NCBI GenBank assembly: GCA_027482195.1
Contig: JAIXWE010000018.1
Span: forward strand, 1 to 37,678
Direction: 5' to 3'
Source of the DNA: Alphaproteobacteria bacterium
GTDB taxonomy: Bacteria > Pseudomonadota > Alphaproteobacteria > Micavibrionales > Micavibrionaceae
DNA: 37,678 nt
The translations under genes and the position numbers were made by a program. Positions 5,868 to 14,171 of this stretch are shown here, in pieces; within the stretch, counting starts at the first letter, position 1; every line of letters starts with the position of its first letter. A model generated the notes under the pieces. It was not told where the DNA came from and searched no databases. It saw nothing but the letters and a program-made list of their open reading frames with translations.

Positions 5868-8333
5868 ATGACCCAGAACCTCGTGATTGTTGAATCGCCC
5901 GCCAAGGCCAAGACGATTAATAAATATCTCGGCAAGGATTATCATGTTCTTGCATCCTTCGGGCATGTGCGAGATTTGCCGCCGAAAGACGGATCGGTGC
6001 GCCCCGATGATAATTTTTCCATGAGTTGGGAGTTATCAGACCGCGCGGAGAAAACCATGCGCGATATCCAAGCAGCCGCAAAAAAGGCGGATGCAATTTA
6101 TCTGTGCACTGACCCCGACCGCGAAGGTGAAGCCATTTCATGGCACGTTTTACAAATTCTCAATGAAAAAAACCTTACAAAAAATAAAACCATTCGCCGT
6201 GTGACATTTAATGAGATTACCAAACCCGCCATTTTGGAGGCGTTTAATCACCCGCGCGAACTTGACCAACCTCTGATCGAAGCTTATTTGGCGCGCCGCG
6301 CCCTTGATTATCTTGTTGGCTTTACGCTTTCGCCTGTTTTATGGCGCAAATTACCGGGTGCGAAATCGGCGGGGCGTGTGCAATCAGTTGCGCTTCGTTT
6401 GATTTGCGAACGCGAAGATGAAATTGAGAAATTTAACTCCCAAGAATATTGGTCGTTGCATGCAAAATTGCAAACTCCGGAAGGGGCAACTTTTCTTGCG
6501 CGCTTGACACATCTTGCGGGCAATAAACTTGATCGTCTTGATATTACCTCAGAAGATGCGGCTGTGGCGGCCGCCGCGCGTATTCGCAACAAAGCCTTGG
6601 TGGTTCAAAAAGTTGAAAAGAAACAGGTTCGCCGTAACCCCGCACCACCTTTTATTACCTCAACCCTTCAAATGGAAGGTTCACGCAAATTGCGTTTATC
6701 TTCCGCGCAAACAATGCGCTTAGCACAACAGCTTTACGAAGGGGTTGATATTGGCGGCGAAACGGTCGGCCTTATTACCTATATGCGAACCGATGGTACA
6801 ACGCTTTCGCAAGAGGCGGTTCAACAATGCCGCGATAAAATTATCAAAGATTTTGGCAAAAATTATTTGCCTGATGCGCCGCGCCTTTACAAAAGTAAAG
6901 CCAAAAACGCGCAAGAAGCGCACGAAGCCATTCGCCCAACCGACATGTCCCGCAGCCCCAAAGACGTCATCCAATATCTCGATGACCGCCAGGCTGCTTT
7001 ATATGAGTTAATCTGGAAGCGAACATTGGCGTCCCAGATGGAGAATGCTGTGCTGGATCAAGTCACGGCGGATATTTCAGACGGCACAGATGATGTTGTG
7101 TTGCGCGCAACCGGATCCACCATTGCGTTTGATGGCTTCTTGACCCTTTATCAAGAAGATGAAGATGACAGTGTCGAGGGCGAGAATAAAGACGATGAGA
7201 ATGCGGAACGCCGTTTGCCAAAACTTAATCCGCAGGATCCATTAAAAACAATGGATATTCAAACCGATCAACATTTCACCCAACCACCTCCGCGTTATTC
7301 CGAAGCGGCGTTGGTCAAGAAATTGGAAGAAATGGGAATTGGTCGCCCATCCACTTATGCCTCTATCATCCAAGTTCTGCAAGATCGCCAATATGTGATC
7401 CTTGATAAACGCCGCTTCACCCCCGAAGATCGCGGGCGCTTGGTTGTCACCTTCCTCAAAAAATTCTTTGAACGTTATGTTGATTATGATTTCACCGCGA
7501 ATTTAGAAGGTGAATTGGACGCGATCTCAAGTGGTGATGTAAATTACATCCAAGCCTTGCGTGATTTTTGGACCGGTTTCAAAGCAGCCGTTGATGACAC
7601 CAAAAATCTGACCATCACGCATGTCTTGGATCATCTCGACGCTGAATTGGGCCCGCACTTTTTCCCCATTACAAATGAGACACCGGATCCACGCAAATGC
7701 CCATCATGTGAAACGGGGCGCTTATCCTTAAAGCTTGGAAAATTTGGAGCCTTTATCGGATGTTCAAATTACCCCGAATGTAAACACACACGGCCCTTGG
7801 TTGTGCAAACACAAGATGCTCAAGACGAAGCGCAAGCAGGCGCACAGTTAAACGAGCCAAAAATTTTGGGAACGGATCCGGGCACAGGACGCACCATTTC
7901 GGTGCGCAAAGGTCCTTATGGTCCTTATGTGCAAATTGATGTGCCGTTAGAGAGCAAAGACAAACCAAAACGCCAAGGTATTCCGCGCGGCCTTCCCATT
8001 GATCAGGTTGATTTGGATGCGGCGTTAAAATTACTCGCCCTTCCCCGCCTTGTCGGACAACATCCCGAAACAAACGAGACGATTGAGGCGGGCATCGGCC
8101 GTTTTGGCCCTTATCTTAAACACCAAGGAAAATTTAAATCCATTCCGGCGGATGATGATGTTTTGACCATCGGGCTTAATCGCGCCGTCGATTTATTGGC
8201 ACAAGAATCAACCCGCAAAGGTTTTGTTCGTAAAGGCAAAACAGGTGGAAAAGCATCAGCAAAAACAACAAAAAAGACAGCCGCAAAGAAAACAGCACCC
8301 AAAAAACCAACGGGTAAAAAGAAAGCTTCATGA
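5868..8333 (+). CDS. topA: DNA topoisomerase I
   Basis: An 821-residue type IA topoisomerase that relaxes negative supercoils by cutting one strand. The TOPRIM domain is at the N-terminus ([14 protein letters not shown], then [13 protein letters not shown]). The central DNA-binding domain contains [16 protein letters not shown], and the active-site tyrosine is Tyr305 in [16 protein letters not shown] and a four-cysteine zinc motif (CPSC...CSNYPEC, about residues 608-640) follow, then TopA C-terminal repeats with KGPYGPYVQ and [12 protein letters not shown]. The tail from about residue 790 is lysine/alanine-rich. The start at 5868 (after AAAGG) gives the canonical [13 protein letters not shown] beginning. 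The stop overlaps queH by four bases. Confidence 0.97.
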
Positions 8334-9001
8334 CAACTCTTTCCACACTTGAGAACCGGATGATTCTTCCCATCCCTGATGGGGCGGAAAAAATTTTGCT
8401 TCATTCGTGTTGTGCGCCGTGTTCGGGTGAAGTGATTGAAGCGATGATCGCCTCAGGGTTAGAGGTAACAATTTTCTTTTATAACCCTAACATTCATCCG
8501 CGTGAGGAATACGAATATCGCAAGGAAGATAATATCAAATACGCCCAGCGTATGAATATCCCCTTCATTGATGCCGATTACGACTCCCGCAATTGGTTTG
8601 ACCGCGTCAAGGGATTGGAATGGGAACCCGAACGCGGCAAGCGCTGTACCCAATGTTTTGATATGCGTTTTGAACGTACCGCCCTTTACGCACATGAAAA
8701 TGGTTTCAACCTGTTTACATCCTGCCTTGGCATTTCACGTTGGAAAGATTTTGACCAGATTAACGGATGTGGCCACCGTGCCGCCGGGCGTTACCCCGAT
8801 CTTACCTATTGGGATTACAATTGGCGCAAAGACGGCGGATCAAAACGCATGTTGGACATCTCGAAGCGTGAGAATTTTTATCAACAAGAATATTGCGGAT
8901 GTGTTTTCTCTTTGCGCGACACAAACAAGCACCGCCTGAGCAAAGGGCGTGACAAAATTGAAATTGGCGTGCATTATTACGGGACAGAAACCGAAGTATA
9001 A
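8330..9001 (+). CDS. queH: Epoxyqueuosine reductase QueH
   Basis: A 223-residue protein of the QueH (former DUF208) family, which reduces epoxyqueuosine to queuosine in tRNA, the last step of queuosine synthesis, as a non-homologous alternative to cobalamin-dependent QueG. Conserved features are visible in order: [12 protein letters not shown] with clustered cysteines (Cys27, Cys28, Cys31), [25 protein letters not shown], the SRWKD segment and the C-terminal [17 protein letters not shown] motif. These cysteines bind the iron-sulfur cluster and metal in characterised members. It sits between topA (four-base overlap) and the first RNase R gene (nine-base gap). Confidence 0.92.
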
Positions 9002-9010
9002 GGCCACGCG

Positions 9011-11308
9011 TTGCATTCCTTTCCCAAAGATACTGATATCTTAAATTTTCTCAAAAAAATTGGCACCTCCGTTTCCAAACGTGAGTTAAATGACGCGTTT
9101 CATATTCGTGGTGAAGCCCGCATTCCTTTCAAAAGGCTTTTAAATTCTTTGGAATCGCAAGGCCTGATCGTGAAAGAGGACGGAAAAAATTACCGCCTCA
9201 GCGATGGGCTTCCTTCCGTATGTATTCTTGAAATTACCGATATTGATCTTGATGGTGATGTGTTTGCCCAGCCGGTTGAGTGGGATGAAGATAAAAAAGG
9301 CCAAGCGCCGCGCATTGAAATTCGCCCTGATAAAAAAGGCCATCCAAGCGTGAAAGTGAATGACCGTGTTCTGGCGCGCCTCACAAAAATTGGGGAAATT
9401 TTTGAAGCTGAAATTTTAAAACGTTTGGATGCGCCAAAATCGCGCGTGGTCGGTCAATTACGCCAAACCAAAAATGGTTATGTTTTGGCCCCGCTTGATC
9501 GCAAGGCAAAATTTGACTTTGAAGTTGCCGAACAAGATATGGGTGATGCCAAACCCTTCATGATTGTGGTGGGTGAAATTCAACCCGCGCGCGGGTCTTT
9601 GCGCCGCAAAGCACGCGTTGTCGAGGTGATCGGCAATGATGATGACCCAAAAGCGATCAGCGTCATGGCCATTCATGAAATGGGGCTGCGCACAGCTTTT
9701 CCCGATGACGTGATCATAAGCACAAACGACATGAATGTCCCGCCTTTGGGGGATCGGGTCGATTTACGTGATATTCCGCTTGTGACAATTGACGGATCGG
9801 ATGCGCGCGATTTTGATGATGCGGTTTTTGCCGAACGCGATACCGATCCGCACAATAAAAATGGCTATCATCTCATTGTTGCAATTGCGGATGTGGCACA
9901 TTATGTGCGCCCGTTCTCCCCGCTTGATAAAGAGGCTTTTGCGCGCGGAAACTCGACATATTTTCCTGATCGTGTTGTGCCGATGTTGCCGGAGCGTTTA
10001 TCGAATGATTTATGTTCCTTGCGCCCCAATGAGCCGCGCGCGACCTTGGCCGTGCATTTATGGATTGATGCTGAAGGGAATTTGTTACGCCATCAATTTG
10101 TGCGCGGGTTGATGCAATCGCGTGCACGCCTGACTTATGAGCAAGTACAAAAAGCCATGGATGGAGAGCTCGACTCCACCACTGCGCCAATTTTGGAAAA
10201 GGTCATTCAACCCCTTTATGCCGCATGGAAAATTTTGGATGATGCGCGTATAAAACGCGGAGCACTTGATTTAGATGTGCCGGAACGCAAAATTATTATC
10301 AACTCTAAAAATGAAATGGCGGGTGTTGCCGTGCGCGAACGGCTCAACAGCCATCGCGTCATTGAGGAGTTTATGATTCTTGCAAACGTCGCAGCCGCCC
10401 AAGCATTAGAGGCGAAAAAATTTCCCTGTATTTACCGCATTCATGATCGACCCACGGGCGATAAGCTTTCCTCCGCGTCTGCATTTCTCGAAGCATTTGG
10501 GCTTAACTTGCCAAAGGGTGGCGTTGCCAACCCCGGCCAGCTGAATAATATCTTGCTCAAAGCCAAGGAGATGAAAGCCGGGTTTTTGATACATGAAATT
10601 ATTCTGCGCTCGCAAGCACAAGCGGTTTACAGCCCCGATAATATCGGCCATTTCGGATTAGCTTTGCAAAAATATGCGCATTTTACGTCACCCATTCGCC
10701 GCTACGCCGATTTGATTGTGCACCGCGCGTTGATTAAAGCTTATCATTTAGGTGATGGCGGATTGGATGACACCGAGCGTGTGCGCTTAACCGAAATTGC
10801 CAGTCATATTTCATCCACCGAACGGGTCTCAGCCGAAGCGGAACGCAACGCAGTCGATCGTTTCACCGCGCGTTTTTTACAAGATCGTTTGGGTCACACC
10901 ATGACGGGGCGCATTGGGGGAGTCACACGTTTCGGATTATTTGTGCGCTTGACCGACACCGCGGCTGATGGCTTGGTTCCCATTCGCACCTTGCCGCAAG
11001 ATTATTACGTGCACGAAGAATCCCAACATGCCTTAATCGGCAAACGCACAGGGCGCGTGTTTCGTTTGGGCGCGCCCGTTTTGGTCAAGGTGGTTGAGGC
11101 AGACCCGCTGACGGGCAGCACCGTTTTGGAATTGGTTAACGGCGAAGACGGTGCAGATGTTGACGGATATAAACCAACCCGCGGTCGCAGTTTTCGTGGA
11201 AAAGCCTCTGGCAAAAGCTCAAAAAGCTTGCCGGAAGAGCGCGCGACAGAGTATAAAAAATCACAACGCCATAAAAAAAGAAATAAAAATAGAAATAAGC
11301 ATCGCTGA
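9011..11308 (+). CDS. rnr: Ribonuclease R (first of two tandem copies)
   Basis: A 765-residue 3'-to-5' exoribonuclease of the RNase II/R family, which degrades structured RNA and takes part in RNA quality control. Domain order is canonical: N-terminal winged helix (residues 1-65), cold-shock domains (about 70-230), RNB catalytic domain with TIDGSDARDFDD, S1 domain (about 627-705, GRIGGVTRFGLFVRL) and a basic lysine/arginine-rich tail. The four metal-binding aspartates are Asp261, Asp267, Asp269 and Asp270. TSPIRRYADLIVHRAL near residue 560 is also conserved. The start is TTG with AAGG seven bases upstream; no good ATG exists nearby. A divergent paralog begins 35 bases downstream. Confidence 0.95.
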   Translation: MHSFPKDTDILNFLKKIGTSVSKRELNDAFHIRGEARIPFKRLLNSLESQGLIVKEDGKNYRLSDGLPSVCILEITDIDLDGDVFAQPVEWDEDKKGQAPRIEIRPDKKGHPSVKVNDRVLARLTKIGEIFEAEILKRLDAPKSRVVGQLRQTKNGYVLAPLDRKAKFDFEVAEQDMGDAKPFMIVVGEIQPARGSLRRKARVVEVIGNDDDPKAISVMAIHEMGLRTAFPDDVIISTNDMNVPPLGDRVDLRDIPLVTIDGSDARDFDDAVFAERDTDPHNKNGYHLIVAIADVAHYVRPFSPLDKEAFARGNSTYFPDRVVPMLPERLSNDLCSLRPNEPRATLAVHLWIDAEGNLLRHQFVRGLMQSRARLTYEQVQKAMDGELDSTTAPILEKVIQPLYAAWKILDDARIKRGALDLDVPERKIIINSKNEMAGVAVRERLNSHRVIEEFMILANVAAAQALEAKKFPCIYRIHDRPTGDKLSSASAFLEAFGLNLPKGGVANPGQLNNILLKAKEMKAGFLIHEIILRSQAQAVYSPDNIGHFGLALQKYAHFTSPIRRYADLIVHRALIKAYHLGDGGLDDTERVRLTEIASHISSTERVSAEAERNAVDRFTARFLQDRLGHTMTGRIGGVTRFGLFVRLTDTAADGLVPIRTLPQDYYVHEESQHALIGKRTGRVFRLGAPVLVKVVEADPLTGSTVLELVNGEDGADVDGYKPTRGRSFRGKASGKSSKSLPEERATEYKKSQRHKKRNKNRNKHR

Positions 11309-11343
11309 GTTAAAAAATGCGGTGCACACAGGGATCGCGCCGC

Positions 11344-13878
11344 ATGAGTCATGTAACCGAGCACGATATTGACCACGCTCTCGCCCTGCGGATGTCCGCT
11401 TGGCTGGATATGTCACCAACCCCCTTATCTTTCCAACGCCTTGCCGCCGCCTTTCATCTTTCAAAAGAAGAACAAGATTTTTATTTAACCCCTGCCTTGG
11501 ATTACCTTGCGTCAGTTGGAAAAATAAAAATTCTCACCGATAAAAAAGGTACACAGCGTTATCAATCAACAAAGCCGAACAGCCCCGTCATGGTTGCACG
11601 TATCACGGGCCGTTTACCGTCCGGCCATATCGCGGCGGAGCCGATTTCATGGGCGGGTGATCATCCACCGCAAATTCGTATCAAGAAAAAACATCATACC
11701 GGCCTTGGTCTCGAAATTGGTGATCATCTTTTGGTGGCTGTAAGGGGTGCAGAAAAAGATCGATTGAATGCCCGCATTTTGCAACGCCTATCCGACTATA
11801 AAGAGGCCCGTTTAACAGGGCGTTTTGAAGATACACATATTGTTTGGGCGCGCGGAAAACTTACAACCTCTTTTGCAATTGCATCAAGTGAATGTAAGGA
11901 TGAAATCAATAAAGGTGACACGGTTGAATTTTCTTTGTGCGATGATTTACCGCAAGAATACCCCCAAGCTCATGTGCGGCGTTTTATTTTTGAGCCGGGC
12001 GGGCGCATTGATCGCCTTGGCGATATTGCCTTGATCAATCGCGGGTTAACGCGCCGTTATCCAAATAAATTTGAAGAAGCGGCCGCCGCCATCGCTGCAC
12101 AAGGGGTTAAGCCCAACGATCATTATTTCTCTGTCAATTTGCCGTTTCTGACCATCGACCCCGAACATGCAAAAGATCACGATGATGCGGTTTATGCATC
12201 ACCGCGCAAAGATGGTGGGTTTGATATTTTTATTGCGATTGCGGATGCGGCTTATTATGTGCGCTCGGGCACAGAGCTCGACAAACGCGCACGCATGAAC
12301 GGAACATCCCTTTACCCGATGGACCGTGTTGCCCATATGTTGCCCCAAGCTTTTGCCGAAAATCTGTTGTCTTTAAAGCAAAACCAGCTGCGCCGCGCGA
12401 TGATTCTTCATGTGACTTTAGACGGATTAGGACAGATGATTCACGCCGCACCCTATCGCGGTTTGGTGCGCGTTCACCGTAATATCAGTTATGATCGCGC
12501 CGAAGAAATTTTAAGTGGCCGTGATTCACACCCCGAATCTTTATACAAAATTTTGAAAGATTTGGAATCGGCCTATCATCTTCTTCGCCCAAGTTTACAT
12601 GATGACCGGGATCTGGAATTACTCAGCGGAAAAATTCTTCCCGTTATCGACCCCCAAACCGGGCGTATTACCGGATTTGAAGAAAAAATGCCCAATCATG
12701 CGCATGACATGATTGAAAAATTCATGCTGCTTGCCAATAAAACAGTGGCGCAGTTATTGGATGAAAAAAATATTCCTTATCTGCGCCGTGCGCATGATCG
12801 CCCCGATGCGCTTGCACTCCACACGGCGGAAGAAGCGCTTAAAAAACTTGGGTTTGAAATTCCAAGCAAAGGATTATCACACCCGTCTCAGTTTAATAAT
12901 TTTATCCTCAAAGCGGCCGCGCATCCGTCATTAAGTTTTGAGGTGCGGCAAATTATTGGCGGCCTTATTCCAAAGGCTTATTACACACAAATGGCGCAGG
13001 CACATTGGGGATTAAATTGTGATTCCTATACACATTTCACATCGCCCATACGGCGTTATGCTGACATCATAACTCACCGCGCGCTTATCACTGCCTATCC
13101 TAATTTGGGTGAAGGCGGTTTAAGCCAACGTGATATTGAGGAGTTGGATAAAATTTCCTCACACCTTAATCACGCCGAAAAACGCGCCCGTGATGTGGAA
13201 CATGATGTGCGCAATCTTTATACCCAAGCGTTGATGAGTTCTTATATTGGCCAAACAATTCCCGCGAATCTTATTTCCGTTCATAAAAAAGAAGCTTTTC
13301 TTGAAAGCCCGCTTATCCCCTTTCCCATCAAAATGCCGGCGGCTGATTTTCGTGATGCCGCACTTGGCACACAAATAGCGTTAAAAGTTTTTCATGCAGA
13401 TCCGTTGAGTGGACGTTTGGAATTTTTGCGTGCATCAAAAAATGTGGAAAAAGAAACCGGCTCAACCGGACAGTGCGGCGTATCTTATCTTCCGCCAAGG
13501 AAACACACCGGGCGCAAAGAAACAAATGATGTTGTCGAGGTGGTGGCGCTTCGCGCCTCAAAATCGGGCGGCATTCCAAAAACCGAAGCGATCTTAAAAA
13601 TTGGCCGCTCGCAAAAAACTCTGACTTTGCGCGTGGAACAGTTTTTGCCCGGAGCCTTAACCACCCGGACAGAGAATGGCCAAAACGGTATATATTGTTA
13701 TGAAAAAGGAATATTAATTATTCCTGGAACAAAATTCCGCCTTTATACGCAATCTTGTGAAAAACAGCCAGTCACCTACCGCGCCCAAGCCTTGAAACAA
13801 GGGATAATACATGCGGCCGCAAAACCTCGCGGCCAAGCCCTCAATAATTTGGCCGATTTGCAGCGTTTCATCGCCTAG
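11344..13878 (+). CDS. Divergent second RNase R-like exoribonuclease with degenerate S1 and novel C-terminal extension
   Basis: An 844-residue protein with the RNase R layout: winged helix (about 25-75), cold-shock-like segment (ARITGRLPSGHIAAEPISW), RNB domain and TSPIRRYADIITHRAL. The catalytic site reads TIDPEHAKDHDD; the four aspartates Asp272, Asp278, Asp280 and Asp281 are kept, but His275 and His279 replace the usual acidic and aromatic residues. The region where S1 should lie (about 634-699) lacks the GxVxxVTxFGLFV signature. It is followed by about 145 residues that I do not recognise. It is probably an active nuclease with altered RNA recognition; that is inference. Start at 11344 chosen because AGGGA lies nine bases upstream; the ATG at 11317 has no ribosome site. 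It follows rnr in the same operon. Confidence 0.8.
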   Translation: MSHVTEHDIDHALALRMSAWLDMSPTPLSFQRLAAAFHLSKEEQDFYLTPALDYLASVGKIKILTDKKGTQRYQSTKPNSPVMVARITGRLPSGHIAAEPISWAGDHPPQIRIKKKHHTGLGLEIGDHLLVAVRGAEKDRLNARILQRLSDYKEARLTGRFEDTHIVWARGKLTTSFAIASSECKDEINKGDTVEFSLCDDLPQEYPQAHVRRFIFEPGGRIDRLGDIALINRGLTRRYPNKFEEAAAAIAAQGVKPNDHYFSVNLPFLTIDPEHAKDHDDAVYASPRKDGGFDIFIAIADAAYYVRSGTELDKRARMNGTSLYPMDRVAHMLPQAFAENLLSLKQNQLRRAMILHVTLDGLGQMIHAAPYRGLVRVHRNISYDRAEEILSGRDSHPESLYKILKDLESAYHLLRPSLHDDRDLELLSGKILPVIDPQTGRITGFEEKMPNHAHDMIEKFMLLANKTVAQLLDEKNIPYLRRAHDRPDALALHTAEEALKKLGFEIPSKGLSHPSQFNNFILKAAAHPSLSFEVRQIIGGLIPKAYYTQMAQAHWGLNCDSYTHFTSPIRRYADIITHRALITAYPNLGEGGLSQRDIEELDKISSHLNHAEKRARDVEHDVRNLYTQALMSSYIGQTIPANLISVHKKEAFLESPLIPFPIKMPAADFRDAALGTQIALKVFHADPLSGRLEFLRASKNVEKETGSTGQCGVSYLPPRKHTGRKETNDVVEVVALRASKSGGIPKTEAILKIGRSQKTLTLRVEQFLPGALTTRTENGQNGIYCYEKGILIIPGTKFRLYTQSCEKQPVTYRAQALKQGIIHAAAKPRGQALNNLADLQRFIA

Positions 13879-13883
13879 TTTTC

Positions 13884-13911
13884 TTGACATTGTTCTTAAA
13901 AATCGTATAGT
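13884..13911 (+). promoter_or_regulatory. Sigma70-type promoter of rpmG
   Basis: A perfect -35 box TTGACA (13884-13889) is separated by 16 bases from TATAGT (13906-13911), a one-mismatch -10 box. It begins six bases after the stop of the second RNase R gene and lies 33 bases upstream of the rpmG start, so rpmG should have its own strong transcript starting near 13918. This is the best promoter by eye in the window. Confidence 0.8.
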
Positions 13912-13943: not shown

Positions 13944-14171
13944 ATGGCGAAAAAAAGCGCGACCGTGAAAGTGCGTTTGGTCAGCACAGGCAAGAATGTA
14001 AAGGGCAATGCTACTGGCTTTACCTACTACATCAAAAAGAATCCGAAAAATATTACGGAGAAAATGTCGTTCCGTAAGTATGATCCCCGCGCGGTCAATG
14101 CGGAGACCGGCAAAGTGGGATGTCATGTGATGTTCGAAGAAAAGAAATTGCCACCGGCGAAGAAAAACTAA
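13944..14171 (+). CDS. rpmG: 50S ribosomal protein L33, extended
   Basis: A 75-residue ribosomal protein of the large subunit. The core motifs match alphaproteobacterial L33: TVKVRLVST near the N-terminus, then YYIKKNPKNITEKMSFRKYDP. Like others of the group it lacks the CxxC zinc pairs. It is longer than the common 55 residues: a short insertion (GKNVKGNA) follows the first strand, another (AVNAETGKVGC) follows KYDP, and a PPAKKN tail ends the protein. The start at 13944 gives the standard MAK beginning; an upstream in-frame ATG at 13935 would add three residues. It has its own promoter and a strong terminator. Confidence 0.92.
   Translation: MAKKSATVKVRLVSTGKNVKGNATGFTYYIKKNPKNITEKMSFRKYDPRAVNAETGKVGCHVMFEEKKLPPAKKN

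Follow-up and report, generated by a model that had tools for sequence, protein, structure and literature searches.

The non-catalytic domains of RNase R help to decide which RNAs are degraded. RNase R (TIGR02063), with solved structures from E. coli, B. subtilis and M. genitalium, has a winged helix, two cold-shock domains (CSDs), an RNB catalytic domain, an S1 domain and a full catalytic set, and a K/R-rich extension after S1 is typical of it (PMC12320835). RNase II (rnb) has the RNB catalytic core and S1, and lacks the winged helix. Directly behind the rnr gene described here (product P0001) we found a second RNB gene, whose product, P0002, resembles RNase R in its domains, its catalytic set and its structural match (Z 46-48 over about 530 residues). 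It differs from RNase R in an S1 domain about 20 residues shorter, in having an orphan 147-residue C-terminus and no K/R-rich tail, and in reading HMLP for PMLP. With RNase II it has in common the RNB core and S1, and differs by its winged helix.

We analyzed one stretch of DNA of 37,678 nucleotides (the window), which is contig C6 in a draft genome of 1.80 Mb with 99.8% completeness and 3.6% contamination. Its gene order is topA, queH-like, rnr, second RNB gene, rpmG, pleD and divK (Table 1). As the first-pass annotation had proposed, rnr and its neighbour are two tandem RNase R-type genes: both ORFs are complete, encode RNB proteins, and stand head to tail on the plus strand with a spacing of 8 bp. 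Neither a promoter-like nor a terminator-like match was found within this gap. The site in front of rpmG is the best of ten promoter-like sites found by the promoter scan, where 9.6 were expected. Since rpmG has a strong promoter-like site of its own, the second gene is probably the last of the operon. The GC content of the P0002 gene is 0.470 versus 0.476 for the window, a composition equal to that of its surroundings.

Table 1. Features of the rnr region, with positions in the window
Feature	Position	Strand	Evidence or remark
queH-like gene (presumed name, by sequence), between topA and rnr	8330..9001	+	Upstream in the same gene run
rnr (P0001), canonical RNase R, 765 aa, TTG start	9011..11308	+	TIGR02063 685.8 bits; Pfam CSD2, RNB, S1; 18 K/R in last 50 residues
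Second RNB gene (P0002), 853 aa, divergent RNase R-like	11317..13878	+	PF00773, TIGR02063, AlphaFold2, structure alignment
P0002 alternative start	11344	+	Internal ATG, nine residues in
Winged helix, P0002 residues 20-84	11374..11568	+	AlphaFold2, pLDDT about 90; PDB winged-helix matches at residues 17-88
Two cold-shock (OB) domains, P0002 residues 91-158 and 165-225	11587..11991	+	AlphaFold2 beta-barrels; aligned to RNase R CSDs; no Pfam CSD match
RNB catalytic domain, P0002 residues 234-643	12016..13245	+	Pfam, AlphaFold2, structural alignment
Catalytic Asp loop TIDPEHAKDHDD, P0002 residues 279-290	12151..12186	+	D281, D287, D289, D290
Short S1-like domain, P0002 residues 646-706	13252..13434	+	AlphaFold2, alignment; about 20 residues shorter than RNase R S1; no Pfam S1 match
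Orphan C-terminal extension, P0002 residues 707-853 (147 residues)	13435..13875	+	Low-confidence beta region and C-terminal helices; replaces K/R-rich tail
Promoter-like site TTGACA-16-TATAGT before rpmG	13884..13911	+	Sigma-70-type, 11/12 match; consensus match only
rpmG (ribosomal protein L33)	13944..14171	+	Conserved right border of slot; synteny table

Both proteins scored above the Pfam gathering threshold for PF00773 (29.3 bits), with 343.6 bits for P0001 and 255.1 for P0002. Regarding the RNase R equivalog TIGR02063 (cut-off 597.85), P0001 passes and P0002 stays below with 328.4 bits, about half the cut-off. With the RNase II model TIGR02062 (cut-off 641.9) P0002 gave only 104.9 bits. 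Pfam detected RNB alone in P0002, with no CSD and no S1 match. The AlphaFold2 model of P0002 (31-row alignment, mean pLDDT 81.5) presents the predicted RNase R order of winged helix, CSD1, CSD2, RNB and a short S1, in agreement with the earlier claim that both genes encode the same domain order. Compared with the solved RNase R chains, the alignment runs through residue 707, with Z 47.2 over 534 residues at 4.5 Å for the E. coli enzyme and Z 47.5 over 533 residues at 3.7 Å for that of M. genitalium. Yeast Ssd1 also has this fold according to structure alignment. Among the PDB matches listed, none reached past residue 717 of the model. Pfam gave no match in the C-terminal region, and residues 632-853 compared with 104 genomes of the family returned chance-level matches with stops and no convincing relative. 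The last 50 residues contain 8 K/R in P0002 versus the 18 of P0001, and a K/R-rich extension is missing from P0002. By eye, we observed no obvious signal peptide at its N-terminus.

The four metal-binding aspartates are kept in both proteins, as previously annotated, at D261/267/269/270 in P0001 and D281/287/289/290 in P0002 (the earlier numbers 272/278/280/281 count from the internal ATG). All nine catalytic and clamp residues that we mapped from E. coli RNase II (D201, D207, D209, D210, Y253, Y313, E390, R500 and E542) are conserved in P0002, as D281, D287, D289, D290, Y333, Y392, E467, R579 and E628. The first-pass annotation had linked the catalytic loop, PEHAKDHDD in P0002 against GSDARDFDD in P0001, to a possible new role, and this idea had to be given up. 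A scan of the genome collection with KDHDDAVY among its patterns retrieved ordinary Rhizobiales RNase R, and in the alignment TIDPPDAKDHDDAVYA is present in Bartonella, Tardiphaga and others. Hence, given that AKDHDDAVY is normal in Rhizobiales RNase R and that the four aspartates are unchanged, the loop of P0002 is ordinary variation. At the sequence level, a better marker is found where VVPMLP..LSNDLCSL becomes VAHMLP..FAENLLSL in P0002. The M. aeruginosavorus and g8 second copies carry the same His (PMLP to HMLP) and the same Glu (for Asn, in the next motif), and the tree group of P0002 described below mostly shares these changes.

We looked for RNB genes across the family, which includes the predator Micavibrio aeruginosavorus (G022 and G076). 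At least one RNB match was found in 95 of the 104 genomes of the family, and at least two in 29 of the 95. Outside the family, at least two matches were found in 8 of the 297 RNB-positive genomes of the class, some of which look like split genes (Fisher p 3e-13, on genomes that are not independent). The other 289 have one match, which bears out the earlier statement that a single gene is the norm. Other families of the same order also have second copies. Asked whether neighbours keep the pair, the family gave a patchy answer. Besides the window, nine of 94 rnr loci (G063, G023, G003, G112, G113, G018, G022, G076 and G020) carry a second RNB gene directly downstream on the same strand, with gaps of 11-72 bp; including the window, this makes ten genomes from seven genera, with spacings of 8-72 bp. 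In two of the 94 loci (G012 and G032) the second gene lies upstream of rnr. In g3, the genus closest by rnr, the second gene is absent; presence is therefore patchy, and gain by transfer is possible. Extra RNB copies recur patchily in the family and are rare in other alphaproteobacteria, where the pair, which the first-pass annotation had allowed might be common, is uncommon. The Rhizobiales order rnr-DUF983-Nudix-rpmG was found in Aureimonas, in line with the DUF983/Nudix genes that the first-pass annotation had placed in this slot for many alphaproteobacteria.

The second copies beside rnr in M. aeruginosavorus and other genera resemble P0002 in their slot (rnr to rpmG/pleD), strand, tree group and shared motif changes, with catalytic residues kept. 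The M. aeruginosavorus protein differs in its size (580-583 aa), shows neither a winged helix nor cold-shock domains in the alignment, and is about 25% identical to P0002 over the full alignment length. The RNB paralogs of genus g8 (G085 and G007) are similar to P0002 for the greater part of their length, which in G085 takes in the winged helix. They differ in lying away from rnr, in identity (28%), in a Lys at the Glu390 equivalent and in a longer S1. The AlphaFold2 layout of the G085 paralog is that of P0002, with S1 followed by another beta region and a helix at the C-terminus. In BLASTP, the P0002 and g8 C-termini gave nothing significant and do not match each other in sequence, and the common layout of these two models, both of low local confidence here, is suggestive only.

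P0002 and P0001 are about 31% identical, while P0001 and the RNase R of genus g3 reach 64%. In three trees, P0002 falls outside the alphaproteobacterial RNase R clade, on a long branch. The 63-row RNB tree places it with the M. aeruginosavorus second copy, two g8 paralogs and G018b (support 95/82), and P0001 beside genus g3 within the ordinary RNase R clade. After removal of the longest branches, a 50-row tree unites P0002, G022b, G085x and G007x with 97/92. A scan of the genome contigs with P0002 found no ortholog, and retrieved ordinary Rhizobiales RNase R at 28-33% identity. Together with its score of half the RNase R model's cut-off, these results fit the earlier view of an old, divergent second copy. 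Every second copy lies on a long branch, and their grouping may be partly long-branch attraction; for this reason we consider it likely, rather than proven, from the sequences that P0002 is an old paralog and not a recent copy. Regarding selection, omega between two M. aeruginosavorus strains was 0.049 for the second copy versus 0.052 for rnr, and in genus g4 it was 0.043 versus 0.018. According to these low values, the second copies are kept by selection in both (strong purifying selection in M. aeruginosavorus). The values are those of relatives, P0002 having no close ortholog among the genomes compared.

Intactness, catalytic residues, fold, divergence and family recurrence were computed for P0002. 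We put at roughly two in three the probability that P0002 is an active cytoplasmic RNase R-like 3'-5' exoribonuclease, an old tandem rnr duplicate of the Micavibrio lineage, co-transcribed with rnr. The duplication would have occurred once, in tandem and long ago in this lineage, followed by many losses, and rnr and the second gene would share one transcript. P0002 would degrade RNA in the 3'-5' direction by the usual RNB two-metal hydrolysis, with its four aspartates binding Mg2+ and Tyr333, Tyr392, Glu467 and Arg579 gripping the RNA 3' end, so that the RNA is threaded into the enzyme and leaves as nucleotides. The feeding end would be altered: the CSDs have diverged, S1 is shorter, the basic tail is gone and the C-terminal extension is new. 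As the feeding domains differ, the likeliest consequence would be a different or narrower substrate choice, and P0002 probably prefers structured RNA less than the neighbouring RNase R does. A distinct substrate or role, which the first-pass annotation had read from the loop and the RNA-binding domains, is made plausible by three features of P0002: its short S1, its orphan C-terminus and the loss of the K/R tail. On this reading P0002 is a fast-evolving, lineage-specific protein whose relatives are kept by selection.

One could argue that P0002 arose recently by duplication of the rnr gene next to it, diverged very fast and shares its whole history with that gene. The head-to-tail position and the fast evolution of second copies would suit this origin, and in the AU test the 63-row set, which has more long branches, did not reject placing P0002 with its own rnr (p 0.18). 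The same constraint was rejected in the reduced set (p 0.020), so of the earlier proviso that P0002 might fall inside ordinary RNase R as a recent copy, the trees show otherwise and the test sides with them in the smaller set only. An identity of about 31% within the pair against 64% between P0001 and the g3 enzyme, and motif changes common to P0002 and the second copies of other genera, also argue against a recent duplication, which we find quite improbable. The gene might instead have been transferred from another lineage of the Micavibrio family, or from an unsampled donor, and lodged beside rnr. This would agree with the patchy distribution, with the lack of the gene in g3 and with the g35 copies, adjacent to rnr in G063 and elsewhere in G034. 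It is at odds with a GC content equal to that of the window and with a slot and strand that are the same in seven genera, a pattern that transfer by itself would not predict, and viral contigs yielded no relative. We regard such a transfer as unlikely. As for the downstream copies forming a single clade, the AU test (p 0.10) neither demonstrates nor rejects it.

The activity of P0002 can be doubted too, if it merely bound RNA or regulated RNase R as its partner, with no activity of its own, like yeast Ssd1. The fold common to both proteins, the D to E change at the second Asp in G018b and G020b and the presence of a 344-aa RNB remnant in the genome speak in favor of this reading. However, none of the catalytic and clamp residues tested has been lost in P0002, although a protein without activity could have dispensed with them at about 31% overall identity, and a loss of activity seems very improbable to us. 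We also considered P0002 as a stand-in for a missing PNPase and rejected it, since PNPase is present (1054.8 bits). The anti-phage defence library gave no hit.

Regarding what such a second enzyme might serve, the ARL-13 paper includes four RNases in the hydrolases that it expects partly to serve prey digestion (PMC3189940). The passages in point do not single out the second gene beside rnr, and no obvious secretion signal is seen in P0002; hence, a role in the use of imported prey RNA is only an idea. It is doubtful, though conceivable, that the Micavibrio family repeatedly builds and remodels RNB exoribonucleases from an rnr-adjacent duplicate as a lineage-specific RNA-processing kit tied to predatory or epibiotic life, each genus fitting the feeding domains. 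If so, the kit might recycle nucleotides from imported prey RNA or ribosomes, and with an obligate predator in the group the link to prey RNA use is testable. A normal RNase R next to a repeatedly reshaped second one offers natural variants for the part of the winged helix, cold-shock domains, S1 and tail in substrate choice. A literature search of limited scope returned no paper on RNase R in Micavibrionales or on 'two RNase R' homologs in bacteria. The enzyme family is known; the lineage-specific, patchy variant is new, as a paralog expansion and no new kind of system.

Several other RNB arrangements were observed. The near-complete genomes of genus g11 (G010, G116, G117 and G118), which belong to the same family, have no PF00773 match, and the whole genus seems to lack RNase R. 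In genus g35, related second RNB proteins adjoin rnr in G063 (L035) and lie at another locus in G034 (L052), which suggests gene movement within the genus. In the second copies of G018 and G020 (L040:5028-6863 and L044:1435-4101), the second catalytic Asp is replaced by Glu. The RNB remnant in the genome of the window (L062:8197-9231, on contig C100 of G000), a few genes past lon and an HU-like gene, scores 30 bits with PF00773 over 43 residues and has mostly lost the catalytic Asp loop; it is possibly a pseudo-nuclease. Finally, G033 and G115 each encode one protein (1148 and 1152 aa) in which two RNB domains stand in tandem (L045:4238-7681 and L046:4700-8155), with an omega of 0.077 between the pair at a dS near saturation.
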